A stretch of DNA of 64,000 bases from Diplocarpon mali. Its lineage: Eukaryota > Ascomycota > Leotiomycetes > Helotiales > Drepanopezizaceae. The translations under genes were made by a program, and so were the position numbers. Each line of letters opens with the position of its first letter. Within the stretch, counting starts at the first letter, position 1. This document shows positions 17,836 through 59,729 of this stretch, piece after piece. Under the pieces are notes generated by a model. It was not told the DNA's origin. It saw nothing but the letters and a program-made list of their open reading frames with translations, and did no database searches. The DNA lies in NCBI GenBank assembly GCA_024741835.1, contig JAENRP010000133.1, positions 46,282 through 110,281 of the forward strand, in the 5' to 3' direction.

Positions 17836-17905
17836 CACTCCTAGGCCTGGCTTATAAGTGAAAACTGCGAACTCGAATTCCACTCCTAGGCCTAGCTTAC
17901 AAATG
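17836..17905 (+). repeat. 45-bp-period palindromic module array, gypsy A site 1 (2 units)
   Basis: Two 25-bp cores start at 17836 and 17881, exactly 45 bp apart. Each consists of an arm CACTCCTAGGCC, one central base and an arm like GGCCTACAAGTG. The arms are inverted repeats at 10 of 12 positions in the best-preserved copy (26694). In the element's frame the core reads NSTPRPGL(Q)V. It lies in the linker between protease and reverse transcriptase. The 20-bp spacer (aaaactgcgaactcgaatt) differs from that at site 2. Confidence 0.8.
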
Positions 17906-18965
17906 GCCTCTTATAGACCTAGGGATAGCAGTTTCTTTAAAGACTTAAAAAGAGATCTGAACTATATAAAGAAGGCCTTGCTAAGAGTACTAGACCCTTT
18001 GCTCCCTCTTTTAATAAAGAGAAACGCCCCTTTGAAAACGGCTTATTAAATCAACCTAATCTTAGCCTTAGCAATCGGCGCCCTTTACTACCGCTTTATA
18101 ACTAAGGTAAGATAAGCTATATAAACTTAAGAACTAGCGCTTAAAGGGTTTATATTTATAAGCTCTATTTATAATTTAAATTAAGAAATCAATCGCTAAG
18201 AAATCAATTGCTAAGAATCGGTTAGGTAAGCTGAAATTAGCTCCCTTAGCCTTAGTTCGGCGCTGTAAGCTAAGTATAAGAGCAATGATAAGCTAATAGA
18301 TTAGAAGCTCCTGCCTTAATACACTAAGTTTAAAAACGTCTTTAGTCGCTAGGCCTTTGATTAGCTATTGTAAACTAGGCTAAGGGTAGATTATAAAATC
18401 GAACTAATAGGCGAGAACAATTTAATAATCGAACCCCTTTACCGCCTTACTAATAAATAGCTCTTAAAGGTCAAGAGCTATATTCTTAAGAACTTACACA
18501 AAGGATTTATTAAAGCTTTAAGTTCCTTTTAAATAGCCCTAATCCTCTTTATTAAAAAAGCTAATAGCTCCTTATATCTATATATTAATTATCGGAAACT
18601 AAACGCCTTAATAAAGAAAGACCCCTACCTAATTCCACTTATTAATAAGATAATAGTATATATATCGAAAGCTTATGTTTTTATAAAAATCGATATATAA
18701 TAAGCCTTCTACTATATTTATATATTAGCTAACACTAAGGACCTAACTACCTTCCGCACGCATTATAGGACCTATAAATATAAGGTTTTGCTATTCGGGC
18801 TAATAAATAGGCCTATTACCTTTTAAAGGTTTATTAATAATATTCTCTTTAACTACTTTAACAATTTCTACTCTACTTACTTAAATAATATTCTAATCTA
18901 CTTAGAAAACTCCCTTAATTATAAGATTCATATTAAGAAGATCTTAGGAATTCTCTAATGCTATA

Positions 18966-18970
18966 GCCTT
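18966..18970. repeat. TSD gcctt, left of gypsy B
   Basis: gcctt directly precedes the gypsy B LTR and recurs at 25329-25333 after the other LTR. Confidence 0.92.
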
Positions 18971-19262
18971 TGTGACGGATTATTACTATATGTGGGTTCG
19001 TACCTAGTTCGTACCTAGTTCGGCTACGGCTTAGCGCAATCTTAGTATAGGCTATGAATCAGGTTACTCCTAGTTGGCATCCGGTTCGGCTCCCCTTAAG
19101 CGAATGACCCTCTTTTCTTTATATATATATACTATGCCCTTCCACTCCTTTAAGGCTCTATAGTTATTAATTTTAAGTTATTATTAAGATATTCTATTAG
19201 TATTGCTATATGATTTATATATATATCGGTGCTAAGCAGAGGTTATACTCTTAGTTATTATA
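18971..19262 (+). repeat. Gypsy B 5' LTR (292 bp)
   Basis: It starts TGTGACGG and ends agttattata (RIPed CGTCACA, as kept in the 3' copy). TGTGACGG and CGTCACA are near-inverted termini. A short tandem duplication, ggttcgtacctagttcgtacctagttcgg-like, lies at 19003-19022. Confidence 0.94.
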
Positions 19263-22030
19263 TTATTAACAACTCCTTTGCTTCGCTAGAGATAGCATTA
19301 TAATATCTATTTATATTATTCCTAATAGTCGACCGAAACCCTAATAAGTACAATAATATACTAGAAGACTTATACTAAGCTCTTGCTATAAGCTTAAAGA
19401 ATAGTTCCCCTTATCACTCGGTCTTCTAAGACCCTTTGCTCTCCCTTCCTTTAAAGAGGTGCTAGTATTACCTTTAGTACCTTTCCTGCTAATTCCCTAC
19501 TAGCTAATAACAATAGCCTTAAAGTTACTATATTATAAGCTGAATTGGATTCCTTATAAGTTCGACTTGCATTTATATTAAAAGAGTATAATAGGTATAA
19601 TTGTAAGCTGAATTCTATATATTAACAATTGATCGATTAAGAAAGAGATTTAGATGACCTTTGAAACGCTTTTAAAGGCATCCTTAGATTAATTAAGAAA
19701 ATACTAGCATTAGAATAAAACCCCTTCGGTTTACCTACGCGCCTTTAGCGCTTTATAGACTTCGACCTACTTCCTTCTATTTCCTCTACTGCGCATAGTA
19801 AGCGATGTAATAATTAAAACGATCCTTCTTTTGCTTCCTTTAACTAATATACTACTAATTCGCCTTTAGCTTAGCAGCTAAACCTCCCTTATATTTATAA
19901 TATACTAAATCTCACTTAGAAACTTTCTAATGGCTATAATTACTATATTAAATACTAAGAGACTTATATACTTAATAATTTAAAGCTTTACTACTCTTAC
20001 TTCTATAAGGAATAGGCCTGGCTTAATTATATTTTAGATTAGACTAAGGGTATAGCTAAAGATTAGCTGACCCTTTAAGTACTTAATAAGGACGCCTGAA
20101 TCACTGCCGAAACCCTAGTAAGTCAACTTGCTAAGTTCTTAGCTAACCTAGCAGAATACAAAGAAGCTAAGATCGAGTTTACTACCCTTTATATAAAGGC
20201 TAATAAGTCTTTTTAGGAATTCTACCTTAAGTTCTTAAGACTAGCTGCTATAGTAGAAATTGATAATAATAACCGACTCTATAAAGCCCTTTAAGAAAAG
20301 ATACTAAAACGACTTCGAACCCCCCTTATATAAAAGTAGCATAAGACTAGGACGTTGGATAAGTAGGTTACTACTATCTAATAAAAAGACGTCGGATAGC
20401 GCGCTAAAAGGATGCTATATAGTTAGATATAATATAAAGATAGATTAGGCACTAAGGCTAAGCCTAATCTTAATAAGCCTACCTAATAAGGAGATAATAA
20501 TAAATCAACTCCCTTATTAAGAAACTTTTCTAAATCGTATTCGAATTGACCTTAGTATAGTACCCCTGCCCTTAGACTTACTAAGCCTAGATCTTCCTTA
20601 TTTCCTCTACGCTAGACCGATACCCTTAGCGCTCTCTCTCCTATAGCTGATCGAAAAAATTAGTTTGATAAGCGGCTGAAATCCCCCTCTATTACTCTTA
20701 GGTATTATAGCTCTTGCGTTAATAAGCTAGAGTATAATGGCTAAGGATAGAGTAGCAATAAAGAAGAGGACCTTAAGGCCGAATAAGATAATAGTAGCAT
20801 TCCCTTTCCTTTTCCGACTCTTAAAGGAAACGCCCCTGCTTAAGTAAAGCCTCCTTCTTAAGCGCACTTTATAATATATAATACTTCGATTTGAAAAACC
20901 TCCTTAATAGTAATTTGATAATAAAATAGATCCTACTTTTAAAGAATAGTATTTCTTATAAGGTATTAGTACTAATCAATATAAGCGCTAATAGGTATAC
21001 TTTAATTAATTTGATATTATTTAAATCTTTATCTTCTTTCTTTAAACCTTTGATTTAAATACTTTCTATACCCTTCCTAGTTAAGGGATATAATAGCTCT
21101 TAGGGTAGTACTATTACTTATTATATATTACTTAATCTTTATATCAATTAGCAAATTCAATCTTTTACTCCCTTTCTTATTACTAACCTTAGCAACTATA
21201 GAGTGATTTTAGGATAAGCTTAGCTTAAGGAGTATAAAGTTTCTATTAATTGTGCTTCTCACAAGCTGACCTAGCTTAATTCCTACCCGCTTATCGTCTC
21301 TTTCGCAAGGAATATTAAAATTACTAATATTAAATGATAAAACTTAGATCGATACTACTAATAAGATGCAATTTAATATAATACAGTATTAGAATAGTCC
21401 CTTTCTAAGTATAAAGCTCGACGCTAAGAAGCCCTTTCCTAACTCCCTCTTAAATTACCTCTTATTCTAATTAAATACTCTTTTACTAATTCTACCCCGA
21501 CTTTACCCTAATTTAAAGGTAATACCTTTTCTAAGGACTACTCTTATAATATATTAATTATAAAGCGAGAGCTTAATGCGATTGAGCCTAACTTAGCCCC
21601 CTTTCCTATTTCGACCTTAAAACGCACTTGCAAGTAGATAGCAAAGTGCAAAATTCCCCTTTTTTCTTTAAATATATATGTAATTTTAGCTTATGCTTTT
21701 TATATAATAGTTAAGAATTAGTAAGGCGTAGAGCTCTTTAGTACTTTATTTTATAAAATTGATTAATTGATTTAAGATAATTAAGAATATTAGACTTAAT
21801 AATGTACAACCGATTCCCTTTTAAACTAATACTATAATAAAGAGGTTTCGATAGCTATTTTAACTGCCTCCTTTAAATTAATTAAGAAACCGATTCCAGC
21901 TGCTTATAAAGAGTACTGCTATATATTCTCGAAAGCCGCTTCTAATGCGCTGCCGCCCTATCGCCTTTATAATTATAAAATCGAGCTTATAGCTAAATGT
22001 ACTTAAAAGGCCCTTTAATACTCCCCTTTA
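19263..22030 (+). pseudogene. Gypsy B gag and protease region (RIP-inactivated)
   Basis: After the LTR comes about 350 bp of leader (primer-binding site not assigned), then from about 19620 a helical Gag-like reading, with DWL/YLEF-type capsid stretches near 20150-20330. A charged segment near 20370-20880 follows. From about 20940 to 21300 the reading (SNISYKVLVLINISANRYT-like) fits a degenerate retropepsin, but no clear DTG/DSG is left. Assignment of the boundary between Gag and protease is uncertain. Confidence 0.55.
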
Positions 22031-24960
22031 TATAAGATGTCTATACCTAAGCTAGAAATAGTAAAGGCGTACCTTATTAATAACCTTAATAAGGGATTTA
22101 TTAAGGCCTCCTCTGCCCCTTATACTGCGCTAGTACTATTTGTAAAAAAGGCCAATAGCTCCTTACGATTCTATATTGACTATTATATGCTTAATAACCT
22201 TACTTATAAAGATCGATACCCCTTATCCTTAATTGATAAAACCCTAGCTCGATTAGCTAGCGCTTAGATTTTTATAAAGCTTAATATATAGTAGGCCTTC
22301 TACCAGATCTAGATAGACCCCGACTTTAAGGAACTTACTACCTTTAGAACTTGGTATAGCATATATAAGTATAAGGTGCTCCCTTTTAGCCTTACTAACG
22401 GCTTTGCAACCTATTAAAGGTATATGAATAATATCCTTTTTAATTACCTTAATGATTTTTATATAGCCTACTTAAATAATATCCTTATTTACTTTATTAA
22501 CTGACTCGACTATAAATCGCATATAAAATAGGTTCTTTAGCGATTATTAGATATAGGACTATAGGCCGACTTAAAGAAGTATAAGTTTAATATTATAGAA
22601 ACTAAGTACCTTGGCTTTATTATTACTACTAAAGGCGTTTGGGTTAACCTTAATAAGGTAGTAGTAGTAGAGAATTAGACCTACTCCTCTACTATAAAGG
22701 GTATTTAGTTATTCCTTAGTTTTTATAACTTTTATTATCATTTTATTTAAGATTATAATCTTATTACTGCCCTTTTAGTATACTTTATTAAGAATAATAT
22801 TCCCTTTTAATTTACCTTTAAATGCAAGCAGAGCTTCCTATAGCTATAAGAAGCTCTTACGTATACCCTAATCCTTTAGTATTATAAGTAAGACCTCTCC
22901 TATATGCTAGAAACTAATGCCTTTAATAGTATAGTTGCCTTTGTATTATCACAATAATATAGGTCCGAATAGCTCTTAGTTGCCTACTATAGTAAGACTA
23001 TAGCACTAGCTAAGCTGAACTATGCTATATATAATAAGGAGATGCTGGCTATTATTCGATTATTTGGCCATTTTAAAGCCGAGCTTGCAAGAGCACCTTA
23101 TTAAATTATAGTATATATAGACTATAAAGCACTTAAGTACTTTATAACTATTAAAAACCTCAGTTCTTAATAGGCCCGCTGGGCCGAGCTTCTCTCTAAA
23201 TATGACTTTACAATTACCTATTGACCTGGCTTTAAAAACCCTTTTACTAACGCCTTAACTTACTATATTAATAAGTTAAAGGATTAAAATATAATAAAAC
23301 GCAATAACTGCCTTATAATGCTATTATGCTAGGATTAGATTAACCCTTAAATCCTTTTTAAATAGCTTTATAAATAGATTACGGCTAAGAACCTAGTCTC
23401 TATTAAAGAAGTTTCGGCCTTCTCTTTTACTTTCTATATTATTAATTAAGTACTAGCTGTCAATCGATAATATAGGCCTTATTAGGTCTATTGCTAAGTA
23501 GCCTTTTAAAACGGGTCCGATATAGCCCCGACTAAGGCTAACCTTTGGATAATAGAAGGAGATTTGCTTCTCTACTAAGGTAAGCTAGTAGTACCTGATA
23601 TAGACTACTTTTATATATTACTTATATAGGAGGTTTATAATCAAATTGCTACTGCGCATTTAAGCGCGCGCAAGACCTACTAGCTTCTCTCCTTATAGTA
23701 CTACTAGCCGAATCTACGCTAATACGTCTCTTAGTACTATAAGAACTACTATACTTATAGATAAAGCAAAGTCTTTTATAATAAGAAACCTAGTTTACTC
23801 TAACCCTTTCTAGTACTAAGCCGACCTTAGGAGCATATTACTATAGATTATATGAGTTTTAATAAAGATAAATATAGCTATAATAATATTCTTATAATTA
23901 TTAATCAGTTTAATAAGTAGGCGATATTGATTCCTTACCAAAAGGCTACTGATTTACGCTAGCTAGCCTAACTCTATATATACTATATATATCGCTACTT
24001 TAATCCCCCTTTGATAATCACCTTAGACTAAGGCCCTTAATTCATTTCTAGCTTTTGGAAAGCTTTTACCTCTATTTTAGGTACGAAACTGACCCTTGGC
24101 TTAGCCTATTACCCTTAAACTAATAGCTAAATCGAAAACTATAATTAATACCTTACGCAATGCCTTTGCCCTTTTATTAGCTACTACTAAAACGATTAGA
24201 GCGAATTCTTGCCTATAATGGATTTCGCCTAGCTAATTTTCCTTTATGACTCTCTTAGTAGCTTATTGCTATTTGAAGTAGTATATAGGTATACTCTGCG
24301 TACTAATTAGGACTAGAAGCTTAATATATCTGATTTGGAGTCCCCTTTTTAGAAACTTAATTAATAAGACGCCCTTAAGTACTCTATAAGATATTATAAA
24401 GCTTGGACCCTTGCTAAATCTTATATCCTTAAGGCCTAGGAACGCATGCGAAATGCACCTAATACCTTTTGCTGCTTTGCTACTTTCGAAGTTAGCGATC
24501 TAATATACTTAGATATGCGTCCCTACCTTATAGATAGGCCTTTTAAAAAGCTTAGCTACCTTAAAGCTGGCCTATTTGAGATAGTAGAGAAAGTGTTTAA
24601 TTTATACTAACTAAAGCTACTTAACTTTATAAAGGTATATGATATCTTTTACCTAAGTCGCCTTTAAAGAGACCTTAGTACTCCTTTAGATGGTTAAGTA
24701 AATAAACCCCCTCCTACTATCAATATTATAAGAGAATAAGAATACAAAGTAGAGAGCCTGCTTACTATACGAAAGTAAGCTAGTACGCTTACGTACTGCG
24801 CCTTATAGGTTAGCCGCAATATTGATTTAAAATGGTACCTAGCCTCTAATTTTATATATGCGCCTTTTAAGCTTTGCGAATTTCATTTAGAAAATCCAGA
24901 CCTTTTAAGCCCGCCTGCGAGGCTTCCTAATTAGATATAGGCCTATACTAATAGTATAGA
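22031..24960 (+). pseudogene. Gypsy B pol: RT, RNase H, integrase, chromodomain
   Basis: A 76-codon fragment, 22037-22267, is still open and holds the RT signature NNLNKGFIKASSAP, LFVKKANSSLRFYIDY. The YLDD box is mutated to YLNNILIYFIN near 22468-22500. RNase H (TNAFNSIVAFVLS) lies near 22914-22955. The integrase HHCC-like region lies near 23640-23760, with its core from about 23830 (HITIDYMSFNKDKY) to 24200. A chromodomain begins near 24730 with EYKVESLL-IRK and ends with ASNFIYAPFKL-EFHLENP near 24840-24900. A chromodomain directs insertion to H3K9-methylated chromatin in this class. All domains carry multiple stops. Confidence 0.85.
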
Positions 24961-25036
24961 TGATTATAATAAAATAGGTAATAATAAACTTATGGTTAGA
25001 CGCTTGAGGATAAGCTTTTTTTAAGAGGAAGAGTGA

Positions 25037-25328
25037 TATAACAGATTGTTATTATATATAGGTTTGTACTTAGTTTATACCCAGTTTAGCTACAGCTTAG
25101 CGCAATCTTGGTATAGGCTATAAACTGGATTACCCTTAGTTGGCATCTGGTTCGGCTTTCCTTAAGCGGGTGACCCTCTTTTCTTTATATATATATACTA
25201 TACCCTTCCACTCCTTTAGGGCTCTGTAATTATTGATTCTAAGTCATTACTAAGACGTTCTATTAGCATTGCTATATGATTCGTATATATATCGGTGCCG
25301 AGCAGAGGTTATACTCCCAGTCGTCACA
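25037..25328 (+). repeat. Gypsy B 3' LTR (292 bp)
   Basis: It starts tataacag (RIPed TGTGACGG) and ends CGTCACA. Same length as the 5' LTR. The purine tract aagaggaagagtga lies just upstream. Confidence 0.94.
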
Positions 25329-25333
25329 GCCTT

Positions 25334-25748: not shown

Positions 25749-25833
25749 TATTATGCAGAAAATAGGCTAAATATGCTAGTACACGCCCTAAGGTATGGAT
25801 TCACATTTTGGCCAAGCGGTATTATATATAATA
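25749..25833 (+). repeat. TRIM 5' LTR (85 bp)
   Basis: It starts tattatgcag and ends atataata. It pairs with 26162-26246 by transitions only, for example tattatgtacgata against tattatatataata at the end. Confidence 0.88.
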
Positions 25834-25850
25834 GTTATAAGCCTTATAAG
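25834..25850 (+). other. TRIM primer-binding site (initiator-Met half-tRNA type)
   Basis: gttataagccttataag directly follows the LTR. It differs from the copia-alpha site (gttatgagccctataag in copy 3) by transitions only. Confidence 0.78.
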
Positions 25851-26161
25851 TATAGCGATAAATCTTTTCGCATTCCTCTTGCGCAAGGTTTAGCCGACGT
25901 TTCTTACTTCGAAGTTCTATTAGTAAACCACTTTTTAAAGAATTCGGTAATAATTATACTCGGTTTCGATTGCATCAATAGAAGTTTCGATAGATTTAAG
26001 TAAAACGACCTTTAATATATAGCCGAAGAAAAATGCATTCCAGCCTTCCGACCACTTATTTCCTACTAGCTTAGCAGTTTATACGCTATATCTATACTAC
26101 TATAGACTGAGCTAGTACTTAGGCCGCTGGAAAAACTGTTCTTCCGGCGACCTAAGGGGTA

Positions 26162-26246
26162 TATTATATAGAAAATAGGCTAAATATACTAATACGCGCC
26201 CTAAAGTATGGATTCACATTTTAGCCGAGCGATATTATGTACGATA
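26162..26246 (+). repeat. TRIM 3' LTR (85 bp)
   Basis: It follows the purine tract taagggg and is followed by TSD ctact. It is the same length as the 5' LTR. Confidence 0.88.
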
Positions 26247-26648
26247 CTACTTAATCGGGTACTTCTTAAAGACTATAAATAACGCCGAGCTAAATTACCC
26301 CATTTATAATAAAGAGCTCTTAGCGATTTTTAGATCGTTCTACTAATAAAAGGCAAAGCTACTTAAGGCCTAGAAAATAGTATATATATATATAGATCAT
26401 AAAGCCCTTAAGTACTTTATAACAACTAAGGACTTAATAGCCTAGTAGGCTTGCTAGGCGGAGTTCTTCGCTAACTTCAACTTCCTTATCATATACTGAA
26501 TAAGCATAATGAATACGCTAGCTAATATACTCTTACGTCAAGACTAGGAGCTGACCCCTCTTAAGGCTAAGAAACGAGCTTTATACTACCAGCAGCTCTT
26601 ACTTAACGACAAGCTCTTTATAGAAGTACTCGCTACTAAAGGCGATTC

Positions 26649-26763
26649 CACTCCTAGGCCCGGCCTATAAGTAACTTTAGCGCAGATCAATTCCACTCCT
26701 AGGCCTGGCCTACAAGTGACTTTAGCGCAAATCGATTCCACTCCCAGGCCTGGCCTATAAGTA
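26649..26763 (+). repeat. 45-bp-period palindromic module array, gypsy A site 2 (3 units)
   Basis: Three 25-bp cores start at 26649, 26694 and 26739, an exact 45-bp period. The middle unit is the least mutated, with arms CACTCCTAGGCC and GGCCTACAAGTG around one T. The first two spacers are near identical (actttagcgcagatcaatt and actttagcgcaaatcgatt), so the array grew by duplication of the whole 45-bp unit. In frame it reads STPRPGL-VTLAQI (N/D) three times, that is 15 residues per unit. It lies in the RNase H-integrase linker. Confidence 0.85.
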
Positions 26764-28128
26764 ACGATTATGCCTATTGCGCTAATAGAGGCACCTGCCG
26801 ACCTAACGTCTAAGGTTGAGTATAATATAGCAAACTATTATATTATCGATAAGGTCATTTAAGCTAATAAGACCTCCCTTAAGCTATAGAAGTTCCGAGA
26901 CAAGGCGCAGAGCTATAGCCTCGACTATAAACTCAGCTAAGGCAAACTCTTCTTCTAAGGTAGACTCATTATACTATCCCAACCTCCCGAACTGCAAATA
27001 GCCCTAATTCGTTATATGCATAAGTAATCCTATATCGCATACGCAGGAATTGGAAAGACCAGACTTCTAGTAAGAAGAAAATACTATTAGAAAAGCCTTA
27101 GTAGCGATATTAGTATATATATCTAGAACTATTATTATTTAAGGATAAAAGCTCGATATAATAAAGCACTAGGTTTCCTATAACCCTTGCCAATCCTTAA
27201 ACGAGCATATTAGCACTTAATAATGGATTTCATAAAGCTGCTGCTTAATGAACTCGGCTACAACTTTGCATTAGTAATAATAAACCGATTATTAAAGAAG
27301 GCAGTATCGATCCTATGCTATAAAACAGTTGATGCAAAAGGCCTTATAGAATTGTTTTTAATTTACTAGATACGCCATTTTAGCATGCCCAATTCAATTC
27401 TATTAAATAAAGGCGCCTAATTCGTCTCTTCCTTTTAAAAAGAGCTCTATTAGATACTAGGTATAAAGGTCAAGCTAACTATAGCTTATAACCCTAATAT
27501 CGACAGCTAAACTAAGATTATAAACTAGTATTTAAAATAACGCCTTAGACCGTTCTACTTATACTACTAAGACAATTGGAGTTATCTCTTGCCTTTAATA
27601 GATATTGCCCAATTGACCTTGCCTTATAAATCCCTAGGGCAAATTTCCCCTTTCTAAGTGCTAAATAGCTATAAAGCTCGCTTATCTTAGAATTTAATTA
27701 ACCTAAAGCCTTTATAGATAGCAATTAAGAGATTAAATTGTAAAACGGCACTCTATATAGCTATTAAAGCTTAAAAAGTAGTCTAATTCGCTTAATTATC
27801 TCTTTAAGTATAATAGGCTAAAATGAAATAGCTCGCAGATCTCTACTACTAGCCAGTTGATTAGACTATAAGAGATAATATACTAATTAGTATTAAAAAT
27901 TGGAAACTGGACCGGCCGAGCCGAAAGCTCTCCGATAAGTAGTATAGCTTAGTAAAAGTATTAGAAAAGCTAAGAGAAAGCTAAAAGCTACAATTGCCTG
28001 ATTCGCTCCGCTCGATCTACCTTATATTCTACTCCTACTTACTATAGAAATATATTCCTAACCCTCTGCTAGGCTAAGCTTAGGAACCTCTTGCCCTAAT
28101 TAAAGTACTGCTAGAATAAGAGGAGTAA

Positions 28129-28133
28129 GAGAT
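28129..28133. repeat. TSD gagat, left of copia-alpha 3
   Basis: gagat recurs at 35725-35729 directly after the 3' LTR. Removing the element joins the two halves of the gypsy A chromodomain in frame. Confidence 0.93.
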
Positions 28134-28330
28134 TGTCGTGCAGAATGGGCGGAGTCTCCACTTATTCTGGAGACCCTCCACGTGACTCTGCTTAGTCATA
28201 GACTCTCCCTTTTCTTTCCGAAGTCTCCTTACCATATATATACTAGATAATAATATAATCAATTATCTTCATTTATATTAGCGAGCCTTTTAAGCGACCT
28301 AATAAAGGCCCTCCAGCCGACCGTACTATA
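28134..28330 (+). repeat. copia-alpha copy 3, 5' LTR (least mutated copy)
   Basis: It begins TGTCGTGCAGAATGGGCGG and keeps many TG and CA sites (CTGGAGACCC, CACGTGACTCTGC) that the other four LTRs have lost. It ends actata, followed by the primer-binding site. Confidence 0.95.
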
Positions 28331-28347
28331 GTTATGAGCCCTATAAG
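28331..28347 (+). other. Primer-binding site of copia-alpha 3 (initiator-Met half-tRNA type)
   Basis: gttatgagccctataag follows the LTR with no gap. Its complement contains GGGCTCATAAC, the initiator-Met anticodon arm with CAT in the loop. This is the least RIPed copy of the site. Confidence 0.82.
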
Positions 28348-31300
28348 CACTTTAATATGCTTTCTCTTTATATGCAATCGGCTAAAGGGCCCTTTAAGCT
28401 CTTAACCGACTTTTCGAGTATTTATAACAACTTAAAGGACCTTCATTTTCAATTAACAAATCTCCATTTTCCGATCGAACCTCATTTTGCAAACTTCATT
28501 TATATACCTAACCTTTTTTATTAAACTCTATTTAATATATCTGACTCTTTAAGCATCTCTAAGCCTCGCCTTAATACTTCTGCCTCTTAAGTGAAGTGGT
28601 TTAGTAAATATATATTCTTCGCTAAGCTTTATAATATCACCATTTTTACCGATCTAAGACTCCTATTCAAGTCAATTATAGAAACTGAGCCTTAAGCTCC
28701 CTTTATATAAGAGCTTAAGGAACTGGAAACGGCTAACCTTTGTATAGTATACGCGAGGTCTTATAAAGAGTATATAGCGACTCTATTTGAATAGATTTAC
28801 GCCCGCTTTCCCCTAGGAGATCTGTTAAAGGCTCCTCCTCTATAAGCTTTTTATAAAGATATTAAGGATGAATATAAAATCCTAATAAAGGAGTACCATA
28901 TTCGCAAGGAGACTTAAAAGACCTAATGCAAATACTACAAGCTACTACTAGAATAGGTCTTTAAGACTATTAATAGAACGCTCCTAGCTTTTGCGATAGC
29001 TTAAGTATAAATCCAAGCTGAGAAGCTCTCCTTCTTAATACCTAATAGAGATACTCCTATAAGTGGAACCCTTGCTAATAACTTATATATTAATTTAATA
29101 AACTAGCAACTCTTACTCTAAAGCTTAATATCTATTTTAAAGCGTGATATTGCGCCTTTTAATAAGGCTATTCAGTCTTAAATAAGGCTCTAGTATCGCA
29201 ATATACTATACTAAAGTAAGACTAAGAGAACTAATACTTAGCAGTAGATCTAGGAGTAGTAAGAGGCGTACCGCTTAGCAGAATAATACAATCTTCTTAA
29301 GATTAAAGGAAGACTAAGAGTTACTAACTTTTTAAACTTAATTATAATAAAGATCAATCTAAGTTAGGCGACTCGCTTAAAGGAGGAAATTATTACTAAT
29401 AAGTAAATAGGAACCTTATATAAGTATAACCTAATGTAGCTAAGCCGCGCCCTAGTAGGCATTGAATCTAATAGAGCGATCGATAATAAAGGGCTAGCAG
29501 TTTTTACTACTCGAGAGTCTTTCTTAAATGCTAAGACCCCTTTGCAAACTTTAGTAAGCAGCTCCCGAAATCGCTCTATAAGCTCTAGAAGGGAGATTAG
29601 GCCTAAGTGCCCTTATAAAGGCTTTAAAAATCACTATTAGAAGCCTTAGGACTATCGGAAACTATTATATATTATAGATAGGCGCAAGGAAAATATAAAG
29701 GTTCTCCCTTTGCAAAAGGAGGTCCTACAAATACAAAAGGCATTAAATATAAGAGACCAGTTTAAAGGTCTTTAAGTATAGCTTAAGGAAAATGATATTG
29801 CGGTAATAGCAATTGACAAATTCAAAAGAAAGGCTTTAGCCTTTAAGAAGGATAGTTTAAGTAAAAGGGAGAACTTACCAGTCTTTACAATAATAGATCC
29901 CTTTGCCTTTAATGCTTTTAAAGAATTGTTCAATATCTACTACCTCTTTAAGCTAAAACGCTACCTACTCTCTTTAAATATGCTCTTTAACAATTGCGCA
30001 GCTACTTATATTATTAATTTAAAGGATTTACTTATTATAAGCACTTTTAAGCCTTCTGGCGACTTATAGTAATATATTAAAGTAGGTACCTTAAGGCTCC
30101 TAATCATTAGGAAAGGTAATAGATATATAGCAGACTCTCTTCTATAGCATAACGGCTCTCTTATAGGGATAACGCTTTGCAATATTGCTATTATAAAGGA
30201 GTTTACTACTAATATTATCTTAGAGAAGCTCCTTACGGATAAGGGTTTTTAGTACTTTAAAGTAAACCTTACTTTATACTCTAGGAGTATTAGAGATTCT
30301 ATAAAGCAAGCTTAGTTAAAGCGTTACTATAATCTCGTTTTCTTTAAATATAAGTCTATTAACTATTTAAATCTTCTAAATATACTTTAATATAACTTCT
30401 CTACCTTAATAGCATTTCCTATAGCTAAGATAATACTCTATAATAGGTTCTAGTCTAGCTATGCACCTACTAGGGTATAGGATAATAATGCGTATACTTA
30501 GCACCTTTGCGCTAGCCACCTAAGTGCAGAGGCTCTTTAAGCGCTAGTTAAGTACGCTAAGGGAGTGAAGATCAGAGGAATACAAAGGCTAGAGTGCCCT
30601 GCATATGCAGTAGCGTCTGCTAGGTAAGTTATTTCTTATGCTACCTCTAAGAACCGATCTCTAAGGCCCTTCTTTAAGATCTCTTAAGATCTCTTTAACT
30701 TTTTAAACAACTTATATAATAGTTGCTTATAGGTTCTTTTAATTAAGGATAAGTATAGTAGTATACTTTGGATATTCCTATTAAGATCAAAGGGTAAAGA
30801 TATAGTTATAAAGGTCCTTTAAGCCTTTGAAGTATAAGTAAAACGCCAATATAGGCTTTCAATTTGCAAGATTAGGCAAGATAATAATACTTTAATGATT
30901 TCCTTAAGGGAAGACTCTCTTATAAAGTACTAAAGATAGGTAAAAGAGGAGGGAATCGATTTAAAGCTTACTCCTACCTATATACACTAACCTAATAGAG
31001 GCGTAGAGCGAGTAGAAAGGGAGTTGATTAAACGCTCTATTAAAATAAGAATCTACGCTAGGCTTTTAGCAAGCCTTTGGCTAAAGGTTATAAAGGCTAC
31101 TATATACCTTTATAATATCTCCCTACTCGCTAAGAAGAAGATGATCTTACTAAGCGAGGCTTTTTATAATTGGTTTAAGTAGTATTTTCAATTTTATAAG
31201 CCGCTACTTATTAAGCAGATAATAGCGAGCTTAAAGCCTGACTAAAGTCGCGTTTATACATATAGCACTTGCGCATACCCTTTAATTAAGGAAAGGGAGG

Positions 31301-34047
31301 CGGAGAGGGACTGCTAAACCTTTAAAATTAAACTACAAAGGCACTTAAGTTACTTAATTGGATATATTACCTTTAATATTTATAGAATCTGGGTTCTTAT
31401 ACTCTAGCGAGTAATAATAACTTATAATATCGAATTCGATAAGTCTCTCTTTTATAATCCAGAAGCTAAGCGCGCAAACCCTATATCGCGCTAGGAACTT
31501 AAGACGACCCTTTAATTAATTAGAAAGGGAGAGGGAGCTTAGGACGCTAAGTTCGAAGGCATTTTCGAAGAATCAAAGCTTATCGCAGGGCTGAACGCAA
31601 TCGCTGCAGAAGAAGCCGCTATATAAAAAGAGCCTATATCATAGACCAATACTGCTCTATAGCCTTTAACTAATAATATAAAAGGCCTTAACTTAAATCC
31701 AAATCCGAGAGACCCGCTTAGAAACTTAGGGGTAGAAGCAAGCGAACTAGAAGCCACTTTGCTAGTCTTTAAGAAGGCAAATGGCAACTAGAGCTTAAGG
31801 GTAATGATTCCCTATAAAGGCCTTACTAAAGAAGGAATTATAAAAGACTCTAAAGGAGTCTTTAAAGATGAGTTCTATAGGGCGATCGGCAGATCTTTAG
31901 CTACTATTTTATATAGAAATAGAAATGGCTTAAGGGCTTTAAAATAGAGTCTTCAATTATAAAGGCAGGCCTTAGTAAACTCTAGTAGAAGGCTAAAAGC
32001 ATTACTGCCAAGATCTGGGAGGAGCTTTAATAGTCTTATAAGAAGCGACCTAATAAAAGGAGCAGGCCCTAATAATATAATACCTTAAGTTATAATACTA
32101 GTTCAAAGACTATAGACTTAAGAGATAGAGTTATCCAGACTCTTAAAGGAACCTCTAATAATAATAAAAATAAAGGAGGAGACTTATAAAGAAAAGCGTA
32201 AGGAGGAACTCCCTCTTCTTAGGCAAAAGAGGATAAGACGCTTAAGCGTTAAGCAATAGAAGACTTCAAAAGTGTATACTATTACTTTAAAGTATATACT
32301 CTCTTAAAGTAATATTAATTTACCTTACTCTTTATATACTTAGGAGTTTATATCAACCTTTTAAGTGAATAAATAGATAAAGGAGGATAGAAAGGACTAT
32401 TTAACGGTTTATATAATTATTAAAGTTATAATTAATAATTAAGCAAAGGATAGAGCGCAGTCTCTTAACTGCCTATAGCACTAAGGCTCTTTGCCAAAGC
32501 CTTTAAAAGGATAGCTAGACCTAGAGAAGCACCCTTTTAGCAAACGATTTAAAGAAGGAAGGCATTAGGAGATTAAGAATCTAGAATCTCGGAGTTACTA
32601 GAGAATTGTGCAAAAGGATTATTTAAAGCCCTTACTAATACTATTAAAATAGGTATTTACTTATAAGGTTAATAGCTCTAGCGAGCTTTTAAAGTGCTAA
32701 TTATAGCTAATTATGCAAAGGGATCTTTAAGATAAAGCTTCAATTTTCTTAACCTACGCAGCCACGCTTGTAGTAAGGTCTTTCAAAGTACTAATAGCGC
32801 TTGCCGCGTACTTTAATATAAAAGTAAAGCAGTTTGATATTATTAACGCGTTCGTCAATACTCCTAGAGACCTAAGGAGTGCTCTAATCATATACTTCCT
32901 ATTAGATAGCTTTAAGCGCCTTAGTATAGTAGTAGAACTGGACTGCGCGCTCTATAGGCTAAAAGACTCTCTAGCACTATAGTATAGGAACTTTGCAAAA
33001 ACGCTTAAGGGCCTTTAACTTAAGCCATTAAGTAAGAAGCCTTATATTTTTATAATAAAGGATCGCATAGTCTTTATAGCGTTTTATATCAACGATATTC
33101 AAGTATTATATAAGGCCTCTAACCTAGATCAGGCGACTCGTCTGATTAAAGACCTAAAGAGGGCATATAAGCTTACTATTATAAAAGATATCTCTTAATT
33201 CTTTAAAGTAAGGATTATTCAAGATAGGAAGGTAAAGAGGATCTCCTTAGTTTATAATACCTATATTAAGAAGATCGCTTAAAAGTTTAGAGCTAATATA
33301 AGGAAAGTGCCTAGTACTCTACTACTAAAGAAGGAGTTTATCAAGAACTTAAGGCAAGCTTCTTTAGAAAAGGTAAAGGAGTATTAAGAGAAAATAGGCT
33401 CTATTCTCTATACGATAATTATAATACGCCTAAATATTATATTTGCAGCCTTCTAACTATCTTTCTTCCTAATTAATCTAAGCTTTAAGCACCTCTTAAC
33501 CGCAGACTAGACGCTTTAATACCTATATAATACGCACTTCTTAAGAATTGCCTATAGCTTTAAGGCCAAGGAATACTAATTGGTTGCGTCTTTAGATACT
33601 TCTTTTAAAGATAATTAAAAGACTTGCAGATCCTCTTAAAGATACGTCTTCTTTCTATTTAAAGGACCGATTATTTAGAAAGCAAATCGCCAAGCGACTA
33701 TTATACTCTCCTTTACTAAAGTAGAACTCTATAGTATAGTTTCTACTATAAAGGAGATAATAGCTATAAAACACCTCTTTAAAGAGATTCGCATAGACTT
33801 CCTCTTTAAATGGAATATATATTACAATAATTAATAGACGATTCGGCTAATTATTATAAAGAATAAAAAGATTAAGATAAGCCTCTGATATATTGAAATT
33901 AGCAATATATAAATCCGCTAAAAGTATTAAAAAGAAAGCTTTTAAATAATCTACCTCCCTACTAAGGAGATGTACGCAAATAGGCTTACTAAGAACCTAG
34001 ACTATTAGAAGTTTAAAAGCTTCGTTCATTTATTAAACCTTTAAAGC
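28348..34047 (+). pseudogene. copia-alpha copy 3 Gag-Pol polyprotein (RIP-inactivated)
   Basis: Domains lie at the same offsets as in copy 2: gag about 28390-29840; protease about 29980-30250 (CATYIINLKDLL); integrase about 30490-31390; reverse transcriptase about 32600-33230, with FDIINAFVNT near 32830-32860 and YINDIQVLY near 33088-33112, one of the catalytic aspartates still present where copy 2 has NN; RNase H about 33490-34047. Copy 3 differs from copy 2 mostly at CpA/TpG sites. An 82-codon minus-strand frame at 31539-31787 is a chance antisense opening. Confidence 0.88.
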
Positions 34048-35527
34048 TTTTAAATAATCGTTTAATAACTTATACTTATTAGTAAGTAGTCACTTATTAT
34101 TAAAAGACTTATACTTATAAGCTCCTATTCTATTATAATTATATTCATTTATTTTCTTTTATAAAGCGTATTATAAAAGCTCTCCTTTTTTAAAAATATA
34201 GAATAGGTAATATTCCTAAGCTGCTATTATAAGGCGCGACCCTCTTTCAAATTCTCTTAGCTAGGGCTAAGAGCTAGGACGCTATAGTTAAGAGCTTTAT
34301 ATAGATCTCCTCTTAAGAGAGGCCTACTAGCACTCCCTCGGCCAAAGGCCTGCCGGCGAATATACTAGTAATAGTAGGGGCAAAGGCGGGAGGTACGGCA
34401 ACAAAGGCAGCAGGGGCGAGGGCGGCAGGGGCAAGGACGGGCGCAGCAATAGCAAAGGCTAAGAAGATAAATAAGAAGACTATAGCAGCAGCTGCAATAG
34501 CAGAGGCAAAGGGGATAAGAGCGGTAGTAGCAATAGCAAAGGCAAACGGGTTTAAGCCAAAAGGCTTAAGAGCGAATGGGAATAGTATACTAGGAGCAAA
34601 AGAGGTAGTAATACTACTACTTATAAGAGTAGTAGGCCCTTATAATACTAAGGTCCGATCGCTCTTATCTTTTAAAATCAGCCTAAAACTCAATAAGACT
34701 TAATAAAATATATTATAAAAGCTCTAAAGCGTACCCTTTATTATATTAAGTAATAGCGCTACCTCCTTTTTAAAGGTACTATAAGCATAGGCTAATATAA
34801 TAGCCTCTTAAGAGGTAAAGAGAGGTCCGCTAGCCTATTAGCAGCTATTGCTTAATACTATATAATAAATGCAATACGTACTAAAGGTGCTATTAAAGCA
34901 CTAATAATCGAGATTGCTAATACTCTTATATATAATATAATATACGTATGCGTCGTTGCGCTCTATTATAGGCTTAAGCATACGGCGTATAGTAGGGGCA
35001 AGGCTCTTAGGCGGCAGCGGCAGTAGTAGCGGCAGTAGAGGCGGTAGGGATAGCGGCGGTAGCTTATTACCTAGTAAGCGCTAGGAGGACCGCGCCAAGG
35101 TTGCAGCTCCCGCAAGAGCGCTAGCGACCTAGCGCAAAGTCAGTATAACGCAGGGTATAGAGACTTTAAGGGTCTTACTTTGCAAAGGCAGCTAAGGCTA
35201 TAATAAGCAGGAGTTCCTTTTATATTCGAAAATTATTAGTATAAAGACGATATTTTTAAATAATAAAAGAGGGTTATTTTTAAAAGAAGGGAAGGAGAAC
35301 CTTTATAATAGAAATACTTTATAAGAAGCCTAATAGAGTACTAGTATAGAATCGCAAAGATTCTTAAGCGCGCTTATTACTTATAGCAACCCTTCTTATT
35401 CTAAAAGGAACGACCTTTAAAGGGGCAGCATATAAGATAGAGCCTCTTTTCTTTATAACTACTATTTTTTCTTTTATTTTATCTATATAGCTAAGCGATT
35501 CTAAGAGCATCGCCTAACTAAGGAATA
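34048..35527 (+). other. copia-alpha copy 3, 3' extension with 121-codon alanine-rich frame
   Basis: The frame 34338-34703 is open for 121 codons and ends in TAA. It is the longest version of the alanine-rich frame in the three copies and lies in the same phase. There is no ATG at its start, and the upstream bound is a TAA that could be a RIPed CAA, so it may be an exon-like or C-terminal part of a longer product. GC-rich Gln/Ser coding stretch near 35005-35060. No known domain. Confidence 0.5.
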
Positions 35528-35724
35528 TATTATATAAAATAGGCAAAGTCTCCACTTATTCTAAAGACCCTCTATATGATTCTGCTTAATTATAGACTCT
35601 CCCTTTTCTTTCCAAAGTCTCCTTACCATATATACACTAGATAATAATACAATTAATCATCTTTATCCATATTAGCGAGCCTCCTAAGCGACCTAATAAA
35701 GGCCCTCCAGCCGACCGCACCATA
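35528..35724 (+). repeat. copia-alpha copy 3, 3' LTR (197 bp)
   Basis: It begins tattatataa and ends caccata. It is much more RIPed than its own 5' LTR, although the two were identical at insertion. Confidence 0.95.
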
Positions 35725-35729
35725 GAGAT

Positions 35730-36015
35730 AGAAGAAATAATTGGATCTCATATTTAAGTTAAGAAGCTCAAATATCAGATTAAGTAGAAAGGAGCTAATA
35801 AAGACCTCGAATAGTACCTATGCTCTAATACTATAATAGTACCGCATACTATTTGAGATTTCCATTTAAAGAACCCTTAAGCTAAGAGGCCACTAAGGGT
35901 ACTATTAAGCTGGCTTAAGTCATATAATAATAGAATTAACGATTATAGGGACCTAGAGGACAATACGCCTATAGATACAACTGCGCAAGCGCAGTTTTTC
36001 AAAGGGGGGGGGTAG
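35730..36015 (+). pseudogene. Gypsy A chromodomain C-terminal part and polypurine tract
   Basis: Directly after the TSD the reading is EIEEIIGSHI-VKKLKYQIK-KGANKDLE, the YxxKWxG...EW core of a chromodomain with Trp codons turned to stops. DFHLKNP-AKRP near 35850-35890 closes the domain. The segment ends in the polypurine tract aaaggggggggggtag (36001-36015) before the 3' LTR. The domain would read H3K9 methylation and guide integration. Confidence 0.82.
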
Positions 36016-36256
36016 TATTACAGCTATATCATATGCATAGTCATATCACGTATCGAAGTCAGGTGCACGCTAAGGTAGCAAGGTGGCTGGATTATATACA
36101 CGCTAGTAAAGCACCTATACTTATTTTAAAGGAGCTCTACTAAAGACTCTCTCTTCTTTATCTTTTCTTCTCTATTATATAGCGTATATCTTAAGGTAAT
36201 ACAGTCAGCATTACTCGATTATCGCCCCTTTATACGCTCTAAAGCAAGTCGTAACA
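36016..36256 (+). repeat. Gypsy A 3' LTR (241 bp)
   Basis: It starts tattacagc and ends CGTAACA; followed by TSD tctaa (36257-36261). Same length as the 5' LTR. Confidence 0.94.
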
Positions 36257-36261
36257 TCTAA

Positions 36262-51378: not shown

Positions 51379-51383
51379 GTAAG

Positions 51384-55274: not shown

Positions 55275-55279
55275 GGCGC

Positions 55280-55877
55280 CCTTTTTAGCAATCTCGCCTA
55301 AAGGAGTACTAAGGGCTAATAAATAGGGGGGTATTTATACTAATGAATAAAAATGACCTTGCTATAAAAGGCAAGAGGATCTTGAAATTGAAAATAGTTA
55401 ATAAGATAAAGGGGAAGGAGACAGATCACCTATTCGAGAAATCACACTTAGTTATATAGGCCTAGAATAATACTGGTAAAAAGGAGGAAGGCATAATCAC
55501 TCAATCCCTAACTATCTAATAAGCAAGCTAACGCCTTTTAGTATCACTTTCGGCATTAATCCGGGAATACTTTAAAGAATAGGGCTAGAAGGGCATTCTC
55601 AGCCTATAGGATATTATATAAGCATACACCTAGGCAGCTTTAAAGCTACTATGCGATATATTTATATTTCCTTTATAAGATATCGCTAAGCTATTCCCCG
55701 CAGGTACGGTCTTTAAAGTAGTACTGCTGCTCTATAGCATTCCTAAATTAGGAAATCACTAGTTTAGCACCTATTATAAGTACTATTGCAGCAATCTTAG
55801 TATAGTCAATTCAACTTATAACCCTTGTCTATTAGTAACCTTAAGTACTTCTCCCTTTTTCGATATAGTAGGAATAC
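55280..55877 (+). pseudogene. Copia relic F, fragment c: reverse transcriptase, N-terminal part
   Basis: Reading through stops, this is copia RT. The landmark STYNPCLLVT followed by FDIVGI lies near 55812-55875. In fungal copia of this type, VGMQTDD follows at once. It does follow, but 5.6 kb to the right, at 61434 after copia E (IQTDNTLILK). The join fixes both the family and the E insertion. Confidence 0.8.
55873..55877. repeat. TSD aatac, left of copia E
   Basis: aatac recurs at 61434-61438 after the right LTR of E. Confidence 0.92.
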
Positions 55878-56131
55878 TATAGCAATAAGGTTCTCTGATA
55901 GTGAACTTGATAGTAAACTAGAAGAGGGCACGAAGAAGTATAAGGTGCAAACGACGATATTAGGTGTCTTATGTCTTAATTCATAAGAGCTCTCTAACTA
56001 GGAGCTATTTAAGGTAAGCGGGCTTCTTAGCGAAGCCGCTAAGTCATATGGCAAGTTATATGATATATTATATATATGATATATTATATAATAGATTATA
56101 TGACAAACATGTGACGGGTATACCTGCAATA
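55878..56131 (-). repeat. Copia E 3' LTR (254 bp)
   Basis: On the plus strand it starts tatagcaataagg and ends acctgcaata (RIPed TGT...ACA). It includes an AT-rich part (about 56045-56105) with repeated atatgatatattat, partly palindromic. Confidence 0.93.
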
Positions 56132-58130
56132 CATCCCTCTAGGGAGACCTTTAAAGGTACTTGCTAGTAATACATATGATATTATAACTTTTATTATAAT
56201 CTACAGTTTCATATGAAAAATCAACCTATAGATATTGGAAATAGAGTAGAGTTCGCTAGCGCGAAATCCACCCTTTAATAAGTCAAAATCAACTCGCGGG
56301 CCCGGCCCAGGAGTAAAAAAAATCACCCCTTAATCAAGGTGCAAAACCTTCATATTCAACAATTTGATAAAAGCGGCATAGTTAGAGCTATTTAAGCTCT
56401 TAGTAAGTCTATCGGCGGCGTTGTCTTTAGTATTCGTATATTAGAGGTCCAAATGGCCTTTCCAAAGCTCTTGCTAAATATAATAGAACTTGATATTAAT
56501 ATGCTTTGTTCTCTAGTGATATTCGGGGTTTTCAATAAGATAAAGGGCTCTTTAGTTATCGCAGATCATCTCGACTTTAATAGCGTCGTCGCTAGCGTAG
56601 CCTATTTCCTTAAGTACTTAGCGTATCTAAGAGGCCTCTTATGCGAATTTGCATATAGTAACGTACTCTACTTCTATAAATAAGAAAGCGATAATAGTTT
56701 ATCGCTTAAAGGAGGCGGTAATTACGCTATTATTAAGGAAGAAGATGGCCTTAGAATAGGAGGCTCTACTTCCTCTGTTACCTACCTAGTCAGAATCGCA
56801 ATAGCTATACAATTTCTAAAGCTCTAGGTCAGTTGTTTTACTTCTAAAGGTAGTATAATAGAATCGCGTTCCCTATAAGTATTATAAAACTCGTTTTAAA
56901 GCTACTATATATTATAGCAAAGGGTTAGTAAGGAATTTGCTAAGAATAGAGTAGTGGTATAGTATATCCTAGCGCATATAGTGCGCAAGGTACTATAGAG
57001 AACCACAGATCTCTTAGTACAGCTTTACTTCCTATGGAGTGGCTTAGCCTTTAAATTTAATTATATAAACTTTATAGCTATTAGCAAAAGGCGTTAGTAC
57101 GCTCTTATAATTAGTTATATGAAAACGTTTAAGAACCTTATTAACGTAGGCGTTTTAATAAAGTAAGATTGTTCTATTTTATCGATCTCTAACTATATAT
57201 ACTCCTAAGAAGTAGTTAGCCGGTTCGCTACTTATAATCTTAAAAAGGTTACAAAGATCACTCTTAAACTTATTATATATATTACCCTTCTTTGCTATTA
57301 TAAGGAAGTCGTTAACGTAGGTAATAATAAGAATCCGAGAGGCGCGGTTAATATATACGCAATTATCAGTATCGAGAGGTTGAAAATCGAGCTTTTATAG
57401 CTCGGACTATAGCTTCTCTTATTATAATCGTAGAGATTGCTTTAAGCTATATAAGGCCTTAAGAAGCTTAAGATAGTAGTCTTAAGGTAAAAGAACGACC
57501 TTGTTTTAAGTATATCTAAGAGGTAACTTAATATAGATATTAGAGTCAGCTTTTAAATTAAAGAAAGCTATCTTAACATTGAACTGATCTAGCTCAAAGT
57601 CGTATAGCGCTATAAGTGCAATTGCGATCTTTCAAACTACAGATTTGCAAACTCTAGCAAATATCTAATTATAATCTCAACCTTATTATTATATATAGCC
57701 TTATATAACGAATCTGACCTTCTATTAAGAGATTTCCCTATTTTAGTCTCTTTTTATTTTAAAGACAAGTCTTGATCTAAGTACTCTATTGTCTTTAGAG
57801 AGTTCTAAGCGTTTTACTACTACCTATATATCCTTATAAGCGAGGGAATTGTACTTAGAGTTAATTGCAGATCGCCATTTATTAGCGTTAGCGTAAGAGA
57901 GGGCTTATTCGACTGTTTTCAGGTCATTTAGGTATAGAGAGTTAAGTAAGGCTATATGGAAGGCGCTTAAATAGGCTTCCTTATTATTAGAGTTATCAGC
58001 TTTAAATCTAAGAGCATAAGTTAAGCGAGTAGCTCTCTTCTCGGAAGGCTAAGGGTAAGCCTTATTCTTTAAACCAGGAGGTCTTCCTCTCTTTCTTAGA
58101 GTTGGAAGCTTAGCTTTATTAGCTTCTCTT
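56132..58130 (-). pseudogene. Copia E reverse transcriptase and RNase H (RIP-inactivated)
   Basis: The RNase H end reads YTNTKDNAADRLTKSLNSSNYAAFIKLLNM on the minus strand near 56440-56350, matching the closing copia segment (xTxDMxADGLTKxL). RT lies from about 57900 to 56900. A palindromic module at 56291-56315 lies after the RNase H end. A 76-codon plus-strand frame (56453-56683) is an antisense opening. Confidence 0.8.
56291..56315 (-). repeat. Palindromic module, copia E site 1 (single unit)
   Basis: Minus-strand arms are ACTCCTGGGCC and GGCCCGCGAGT around one G, inverted at 9 of 11 positions. It reads FTPGPGPRVD in frame. It lies just 3' of RNase H. Confidence 0.75.
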
Positions 58131-58135
58131 GAATC

Positions 58136-58250
58136 GACTCGCGGTCCTGGCCTAGGAGTAAAATCGTAAGAGTCAGAATTAACTCGCGGTCCTGGACTGG
58201 GAGTGAAATCATCGTTTTAAGAAGTGACTCGCGGGCCTGGCCTAGGAGTA
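58136..58250 (-). repeat. 45-bp-period palindromic module array, copia E site 2 (3 units)
   Basis: Cores at 58136, 58181 and 58226: exactly 45 bp apart, as in gypsy A. The minus strand reads ACTCCTAGGCC, one base, GGCCCGCGAGT. In frame: DFTPRPGPRV, repeated. The spacers (ttctgactcttacgatt and acttcttaaaacgatgatt) are unlike those in gypsy A. The array lies between integrase and RT. Confidence 0.85.
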
Positions 58251-59630
58251 AAATCACCCCTTAATTGCAGCTCTATAATTAGGCCGTTTTTATTAAATCG
58301 AATATAAGATAATCGAATAATCTTTTTACCTATTTGCGATAGTATATAGATCTAATAGATACTTTTACTATTAAATCCAATAAGAGTACTTACCTTTGCT
58401 CTTAAAGCGAGTTTATTGCTTTGAGTTCGCCTTTCTTTCTTAATTAGCATATAAATGCGATAGCTTAATACTCGAAGATGCTTAATTAAAGGAGTATGCG
58501 GCTTATTAGGCTTAATATTATTCTAAAAGACCTTATATAGAGTCTTGCCGCTAAGAATATCAAAGGCGGTAAGATTAGTAATATATATTACTAAAAGAAG
58601 GAGGTAAGGCTAGAGAAAGGAGGGGATATTTTAATTAATTACAATTGTTTGCAACTTTTCTATTAGTATGCAAATTAATCGTTCCGATCTACTATCTTAT
58701 TCTAGCGTATATAGAGTAGATTCCTTGAAAATCATACTAAGGTTTTCTATAAGTATTTGCATCTATATAAGAGAGTACTCCTTACCTTTATCAGTTCTCT
58801 ACCGCTTAATTATATAATTATATTAAGTTTATAAGAGGCTGATCATCTTCTTATTTACCTTAAAGGCATTAGATTTATTTATATAAGTCTATCCCTACTT
58901 AGCTATTATAGCTACGCAAGTGAAGATAGAAGCGTATTTATAACTATTAAGGCCAGTTGGCTTCAGATGAACTATATTAACGTATAACTTGTCAAAAGCC
59001 TTTATAGGTCGAGGGCGAGCTAAACGTTTATTAATATATTAGAGAGGTTTGCCTTTCTTATAAGGAGCGCAAATTCGCGTCTTCCTTGATTTTGTTTCCT
59101 TAATCTGCATATTAGTAATAGTAGATTGGGTCTTTTTAACCGTTTATAGGCTAGCGTAGCCTAATCGACGGTACTAGAGCTTAATATTAAAAGGTCTATT
59201 CTTAATAGCAGCTAAAAGAGCACATCTACTTATATAACCAGAGGAGTTAGTAGAAGGCTATTCCTTATTAATATATATATTATTATTAATAGTGCAAATT
59301 TCCTTCTTATTAAATAAGAATAGCTTGCTATATCAATAGAAGCCTTTGATTTTATTAAGTTTACTACTTAAGTATAGGTAGATAAGTGATTAAAGTATAT
59401 AAAGAGTATTAATTAACTTAAGAATATATACCTTTCTATTAGATTTAAATGCGTTAACTTTATAAGTACTAACGCTAAGAGGTTAAATAGATCTATTAAC
59501 TATACTTAAAGAGGGTAGATTATCTTAAGTAGTATAAGAAGTAAACTTAAAGAGATTATTAAAGATATGCTTATTAATACCTATATTATATAGCTAACGA
59601 TTCCTTAATTTTAATAAGAAGTAGGAGGTA
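58251..59630 (-). pseudogene. Copia E integrase (RIP-inactivated)
   Basis: Minus-strand reading near 59010-58680: FDKLYVNIVHLKPTGLNSYKY, then TDKGKEYSL and LYTLE-DSRSER. This is the copia integrase core with its D,D,E region (DxxGKEY and the ExxN-like SRSER). The H/C finger lies to the right, near 59200-59400. Confidence 0.8.
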
Positions 59631-59638
59631 AAAGAACT

Positions 59639-59729
59639 GACTCCTAATCCCGGCCTGCGAGTGGAAATCGGTCTTAAAGAGGAATCGCCTCCTAATAAGG
59701 AATTGACTCCTAGGCCCGGCTCGCGAATA
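59639..59729 (-). repeat. Palindromic module array, copia E site 3 (2 units, 66 bp apart)
   Basis: Cores at 59639-59663 and 59705-59729. Here the palindrome is flipped relative to sites 1 and 2: the minus strand reads CACTCGCAGGCC first and AGGAGTC last. It reads STRRPGLGV in frame. 66 bp is still a multiple of three. It lies upstream of integrase. Confidence 0.75.

Follow-up and report, generated by a model that had tools for sequence, protein, structure and literature searches.

Here we analysed a 64-kb window of the Diplocarpon mali genome (64,000 bp; positions 46,282 to 110,281 of contig JAENRP010000133.1, assembly GCA_024741835.1), in which a short palindrome is repeated within two retrotransposons, gypsy A and copia E. 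Gypsy A spans positions 14650 to 36269 on the plus strand and is bounded by long terminal repeat (LTR)-like direct repeats (14650-14904 and 36013-36269), as identified by comparing the window with itself and with the stretches L001 to L007. It is broken up at 18972-25325, 25751-26244 and 28134-35724; a second gypsy-like element with 276-bp end repeats (18975-25316) and one of the two copies of a 7.6-kb repeat (3937-11527 and 28134-35724, 89% identical) are nested in it. Copia E is located on the minus strand (55877 to 61431), and window self-comparison gave its LTR-like direct repeats (55877-56129 and 61179-61431). The superfamily labels of gypsy A and copia E, as well as several others below, were assigned by eye because Pfam searches with ten pieces returned no retroelement domain; two pieces of copia E gave no Pfam match. 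The GC content of the window is 33.5%, the observed-to-expected ratios are 0.41 for CpA, 0.33 for TpG and 1.41 for TpA, and no stop-to-stop frame of at least 150 codons is present. We take this AT-rich, CpA/TpG-poor and TpA-rich composition to be the pattern left by repeat-induced point mutation (RIP).

The window contains twelve copies of the palindrome, with spacings within arrays of 45, 45, 45 and 66 bp. In gypsy A, all on the plus strand, a single copy (gA0, 16041-16075, with the 23-bp core at 16047-16069) is positioned in the 5' part, two copies 45 bp apart (gA1, 17831-17865 and 17876-17910) in the gag-side part, and three copies, also 45 bp apart (gA2, 26644-26678, 26689-26723 and 26734-26768), in the interval between RNase H and integrase, these domains being recognised by eye. 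In copia E, E1 (56286-56320, minus strand) is in the 3' untranslated region (3'UTR) directly after the pol stop codon, while E2 comprises three minus-strand copies at 45-bp intervals in a coding linker (58131-58165, 58176-58210 and 58221-58255). The two E3 copies (59634-59668 and 59700-59734), 66 bp apart and upstream of a protease motif recognised by eye, are on the plus strand, i.e. opposite to the coding strand of copia E.

A first-pass annotation of this DNA had reported eleven of these copies, each placed one base before the start of the 23-bp core, and all eleven are present at those positions; it was also correct that the pair with cores at 59640 and 59706 runs against the coding direction of copia E. 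With at most three mismatches to one core reading, a scan recovered the five copies listed for gypsy A (none in 100 shuffles), and a profile scan of the window gave the eleven known copies, one more at 16047 and no other. Every one of the twelve outscores the top value of 40 Markov resamples, the weakest scoring 14.7 on its worse strand. The additional copy, gA0, is RIP-damaged (its translation reads DSTLKPSL*VDS) and scores 21.9 compared to 11.6 for the best of 40 resamples; the 7-bp direct repeat AGATTCT is present on both of its sides.

Beyond the window, the core is abundant. With at most three mismatches, we found 3,036 forward and 3,086 reverse matches in the 49.4-Mb assembly, where a single palindrome may match on both strands, compared with 9 and 4 for a reversed-pattern control; this is the genome search that the first-pass annotation had proposed. 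The less damaged form, with at most one mismatch, had 99 and 78 matches genome-wide and none in the control. Among the matches listed, 60 of 60 further near-perfect copies are in repeat contexts (GC content 0.35-0.49). For the genic part of the genome, a small sample of 20 arbitrarily placed 10-kb stretches provided 18 that were readable. The 17 with 43-59% GC held no copy of the palindrome, and the single AT-rich stretch (32% GC) had an array of six copies. The best profile score in the genic stretch L018 was 6.7 (3.5 in resamples), far under that of the weakest window copy. The assignment of the host to Diplocarpon coronariae is based on one protein, the product of a 608-codon frame, which matches Ndc80 of D. 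coronariae at 100% identity over 98% of its length and that of D. rosae at 96%. For D. coronariae, 34% of the genome has been described as repeats, with 20.7% LTR/Copia and 5.7% Ty3, in a report that also presents complete strain sequences for this and one sister species and in whose main text the word stem "palindrom" is absent (PMC11527701).

At least five repeat families (gypsy A, copia E, copia F, Y and Z) carry the palindrome, at 15 sites in all, and hence the carriers are not only the two retrotransposons to which it had been assigned. Recombination exchange between gypsy A and copia E, both of which are in the window, would leave copia F, Y and Z and their unrelated flanks unexplained; as a full explanation it is refuted and we give it next to no weight. 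In one sample of 20 stretches, 19 have a copy (E1, 10; X, 3; E2, 2; E3, F, gA1 and gA2, one each), the other stretch (L048) having been placed without a listed match. A further 20 copies distribute as E1, 6; Z, 6; E3, 5; and E2, gA2 and W, one each, and the 60 near-perfect copies, taken from the first 100 listed matches of the less damaged form, as E1, 47; E3, 6; E2, 3; X, 2; Z, 1; and L135, 1. The L135 copy matches a site in L171, as does W, and from their positions in one 3.6-kb stretch we consider Z, W and V to be one repeat family. L172 holds several family Y sites, and the distance of approximately 4,970 bp between Y1 and Y recurs on four contigs among the matches listed; these pairs represent Y1 and Y within one element, and the reading of Y as an LTR pair was rejected.

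For copia F the label is supported by Pfam, the other family labels being by eye, and its array is located between the Pol_BBD and gag_pre-integrase regions (the latter match being below the cut-off). X is apparently the copia F 3'UTR, given its position on two contigs, approximately 3.2 kb downstream from the F array. Taken together, the sites occupy coding linkers and positions directly after pol stop codons (E1 and X). The earlier placement of all sites within polyproteins therefore holds for the linkers but not for the copy at 56292 (E1), where the minus-strand frame reads MKVLHLD*GVIFFTPGPGPRVDF. The motif TTAARGG is present upstream of 59 of the 65 E1-type copies. A reading of TTAAGGGGTGATTT beside E1 as a polypurine tract was dropped because approximately 160 bp separate it from the LTR-like repeat and because TTAARGG includes the pol stop codon.

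The extent of the shared unit was determined from a site-weighted profile of 74 cores representing the 15 sites. The unit is approximately 34 bp, from -5 to +28, and all of these positions save 0, 12, 24 and 27 exceed every far-flank position; a chance match with six mismatches (L030:414) was omitted from the profile, and including it shifts the limits by a few bases at most. The dyad extends into the outer parts, RATYY and RRAT. The arm pair is mostly ACTCCY versus RCGAGT, an asymmetry that each of the five families shows, Y4 in L172 being one example, and exact genome-wide counts were 330 for the asymmetric form, 82 for the symmetric GC/GC form and one for the symmetric CT/AG form. That the same asymmetry occurs in all five families suggests common descent, and we conclude that one ancestor gave rise to the palindrome at its many sites, whose flanks are unlike. 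Of 15 single-copy gA2 sites, three carry ACTCGC as the left arm, which makes the palindrome perfect; this could be quasipalindrome correction by arm-to-arm copying, or one inherited change. A perfect GC/GC palindrome (ACTCGCGGGCCCGACCCGCGAGT) was also noted at L171:3249, outside the 15-site count, and at G000:C1:406603, C7:183367 and C193:40125 symmetric GC/GC copies have a Y copy at a distance of approximately 1,640-1,652 bp.

The reading frames were followed in less damaged relatives. The gA1 relative in L034 has SNPTPGPGPRVKSANSNPTPNPGLRV in an open frame of 117 codons and the E3 relative in L033, which has the palindrome in the other orientation, has ISTRGPGPGVSSS in one of 121 codons; open-frame readings in less damaged gA1, gA2 and E2 are SNPTPGPGPRVKSANS, RGDSTPGPGPRVTT and RGDFTPGPGPRVNSDSYDND, respectively, and that of the copia F array is EMTPGPGPRVDS. 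Gypsy A, copia E, copia F and Y1 all have in-frame palindromes in their polyproteins, i.e. in retroelement genes and not in cellular ones. Five of six clear coding sites have one codon phase in common (TPGPGPRV or TRGPGPGV). The stricter proposal that the phase is always the same was rejected, since Y1 is read in another phase as RLASPACES.

Spacings between coding copies (five sites) are multiples of three in 118 of 118 cases, i.e. 39, 45, 48, 54, 66, 87, 90 and 129 bp, of which 87, 90 and 129 bp represent sums or skips, such that the coding units are 39-66 bp. In the 3'UTR of X the eight spacings are 66 (four), 61 (three) and 62 bp (one), and the statement that all spacings are multiples of three, valid for coding copies, applies there to only 4 of 8. 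Copies of one site are not independent and the multiple-of-three count therefore represents few events. Likewise, the 45-bp spacing is real for arrays in the window, but a fixed 45-bp period was rejected as 39, 45, 48, 54, 61, 62 and 66 bp all occur. The copy number also varies: gA2 has one to three copies across elements and the copia F stretches three to ten, E3 has one or two copies per element (as a pair at 54 or 48 bp, or as a single copy, in elements other than that in the window), and the E2 relatives L035 and L040 have four copies at 45, 48 and 48 bp and two at 54 bp, respectively. Neighbouring copies are accordingly gained and lost at single sites.

A Pro/Gly-rich linker repeat that is selected as peptide and has arisen repeatedly, in other words a minisatellite at the protein level, would agree with the codon phase common to five of the six clear coding sites. 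The same DNA is, however, found at the noncoding E1 and X, and because these copies are positioned behind pol stops, peptide-level selection alone is insufficient to account for the shared DNA. Moreover, Y1 uses another phase, the orientation of E3 gives a different peptide from the same DNA, and no database protein resembles the array (no relative at E ≤0.01 among 448 scored candidates). We regard this explanation, already disfavoured, as improbable.

With respect to mobility, all flank-chosen copies are filled in gypsy A (7/7), copia F (13/13), W (12/12) and Y (8/8), and gap patterns able to match empty sites, which need exact anchors and cover only part of each family, gave filled sites in 59 of 59 cases for Z and 15 of 15 for gA2. 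The comparison of empty and filled sites that had been proposed therefore returned filled sites only, and as no tested copy of any carrier family lacks the palindrome, its abundance today is due to the host elements. The nested gypsy-like element at 18975-25316 is too distant from gypsy A for its linker to be aligned in an empty-site comparison. Direct repeats abutting the core are 7 bp at gA0 and E1 and 0-5 bp elsewhere; the signal for a target-site duplication of constant length is weak, with at most 2 bp at 7 of 15 sites.

These data bear on the possibility that the palindrome has been moved by an enzyme acting in trans, as proposed for rickettsial elements, repeats resembling miniature inverted-repeat transposable elements and yeast mitochondrial GC clusters. 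A sharp common unit in unrelated flanks, the presence of both orientations, and the outer RATY on both sides, which yields the 7-bp direct repeats at gA0 and E1, would be expected in that case, while the inconsistent target duplication, the lack of empty sites in the tested families and the absence of copies from the 17 genic stretches argue against it, and we consider such an enzyme unlikely. What stands of the earlier proposal of a mobile, frame-preserving insert is the sharing at the DNA level, the kept frame, the tandem duplication and the change in copy number, but not movement of its own.

Alternatively, the palindrome might be a functional cis-signal, for example a stem in the RNA or a dyad recognised by a dimeric protein, common to several LTR families and kept by selection. 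The exact length is kept in 59 of 59 Z matches, and a consensus that is symmetric over approximately 34 bp but whose outer arms show no pairing covariation is what a dyad protein site would give: in 68 rows, pairing within sites was no better than between sites, and site-specific hairpin covariation was rejected (this test and the flank test below, with 88 rows, include the chance match L030:414). Against such a signal, the position ranges from the gag side to the 3'UTR with one to ten copies per site, neither the 7.6-kb repeat nor the gypsy-like element at 18975-25316, including its RNase H-integrase linker, has a copy above the resample threshold, and the TPxPG motif is missing from a copia F relative, 50% identical, of Podosphaera aphanis. 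We find a cis-signal about as doubtful as the trans-acting enzyme.

The explanation that we favour, at roughly even odds, is that the palindrome is a passenger, an insert of approximately 34 bp and of one descent that is copied between retroelements within the retroelement life cycle, most likely by template switching. Reverse transcriptase, or repair of complementary DNA, would stall at the palindrome and switch template, whereby the palindrome would enter another retroelement; it would be retained only where a linker or UTR tolerates the insert. Slippage at the palindrome, or unequal exchange there, may then give rise to tandem arrays, with RIP subsequently decaying the copies. The confinement to retroelements in our sample, the variation of the arrays and the possible correction of arms fit with template switching at the palindrome.

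Three observations qualify the passenger reading. Hairpin stability, a check suggested in the first-pass annotation, is ordinary (z < -1.8 in three of eight RNA and one of six DNA folds), and a strong RNA or DNA hairpin was rejected, most folds being unremarkable. Co-copied flanks between families were not established in the 88-row flank test, in which two right-flank pairs were borderline, no left flanks were, and flanks were otherwise unrelated. Furthermore, direct repeats at the same site slightly exceed those between sites (permutation p = 0.022 and 0.023), which also counts in favour of an enzyme. Weak hairpins, flanks of this kind and marginal direct repeats leave room for enzyme-driven insertion or a dyad site. 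To the right of the core, L172:3060 (family Y) and L037:291 (X) agree at 13 of 15 bases (CAARTCATATGGTYT); these flanks were possibly copied together, the agreement being within the range of shuffled flanks.

Carrying the passenger reading further, we tentatively suggest, with less confidence than in copying between retroelements as such, that the palindrome might be a parasite of parasites: a geneless nuclear replicator of 34 bp that spreads horizontally between LTR families via reverse transcription and builds in-frame peptide arrays. In that case the protein-coding palindromes of Rickettsia would have a counterpart in a eukaryote, bound to retroelements. Protein-coding palindromes are known in few bacteria and organelles. 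The Diplocarpon retrotransposons offer thousands of nuclear copies in one culturable fungus and, if movement is by reverse transcription, template switching would be a route for very short sequences to become selfish as well as a supply of linker peptides in polyproteins.

In searches of the open-access literature we found no account of a repeat of this kind in the nuclear retrotransposons of fungi, and the nearest known systems are the Rickettsia palindromic elements (RPE) and yeast mitochondrial GC42. RPE are likewise palindromic repeats found in frame inside protein genes and outside them, with mobility inferred and target duplication uncertain as described in PMC2229807 and PMC10969869. 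They are, however, 105-150 bp and reside in bacterial cellular genes, whereas the Diplocarpon palindrome is approximately 34 bp, nuclear, arranged in tandem arrays in LTR retrotransposons and absent from the 17 genic stretches. GC42 is a GC-rich fungal palindrome of similar length (42 nt) for which copying through RNA, together with the merging or shuffling of its units, is discussed; in that account it is mitochondrial and mostly intergenic, with a putative 2-nt target duplication and presence/absence variation (PMC4478555), in contrast to the nuclear, often coding palindrome in retrotransposons, for which the tested families have no empty sites. The double-hairpin elements and other fungal mitochondrial palindromic repeats are also short, and their optional presence has been read as mobility (PMC7218506), but they are mitochondrial, of other sequence and outside retrotransposon frames. 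In fungal copia retrotransposons, the GalEa Conserved Hairpin Site is a hairpin-forming motif described as two 9-bp sequences fixed behind the 5' LTR with a proposed role in priming (PMC5445492); the Diplocarpon palindrome, unlike this site, varies in position (coding linkers and 3'UTR), is not directly behind the 5' LTR and has gypsy carriers too. Coding minisatellites resemble it in having frame-keeping tandem units of variable number, as in gA2 and copia F, but are bound to one locus, while the unit described here is at 15 sites in five unrelated families. Finally, AT-rich tandem repeats that bear no relation to the palindrome, with units of 48 bp and 13 bp, are located at 62475-62606 in the window.
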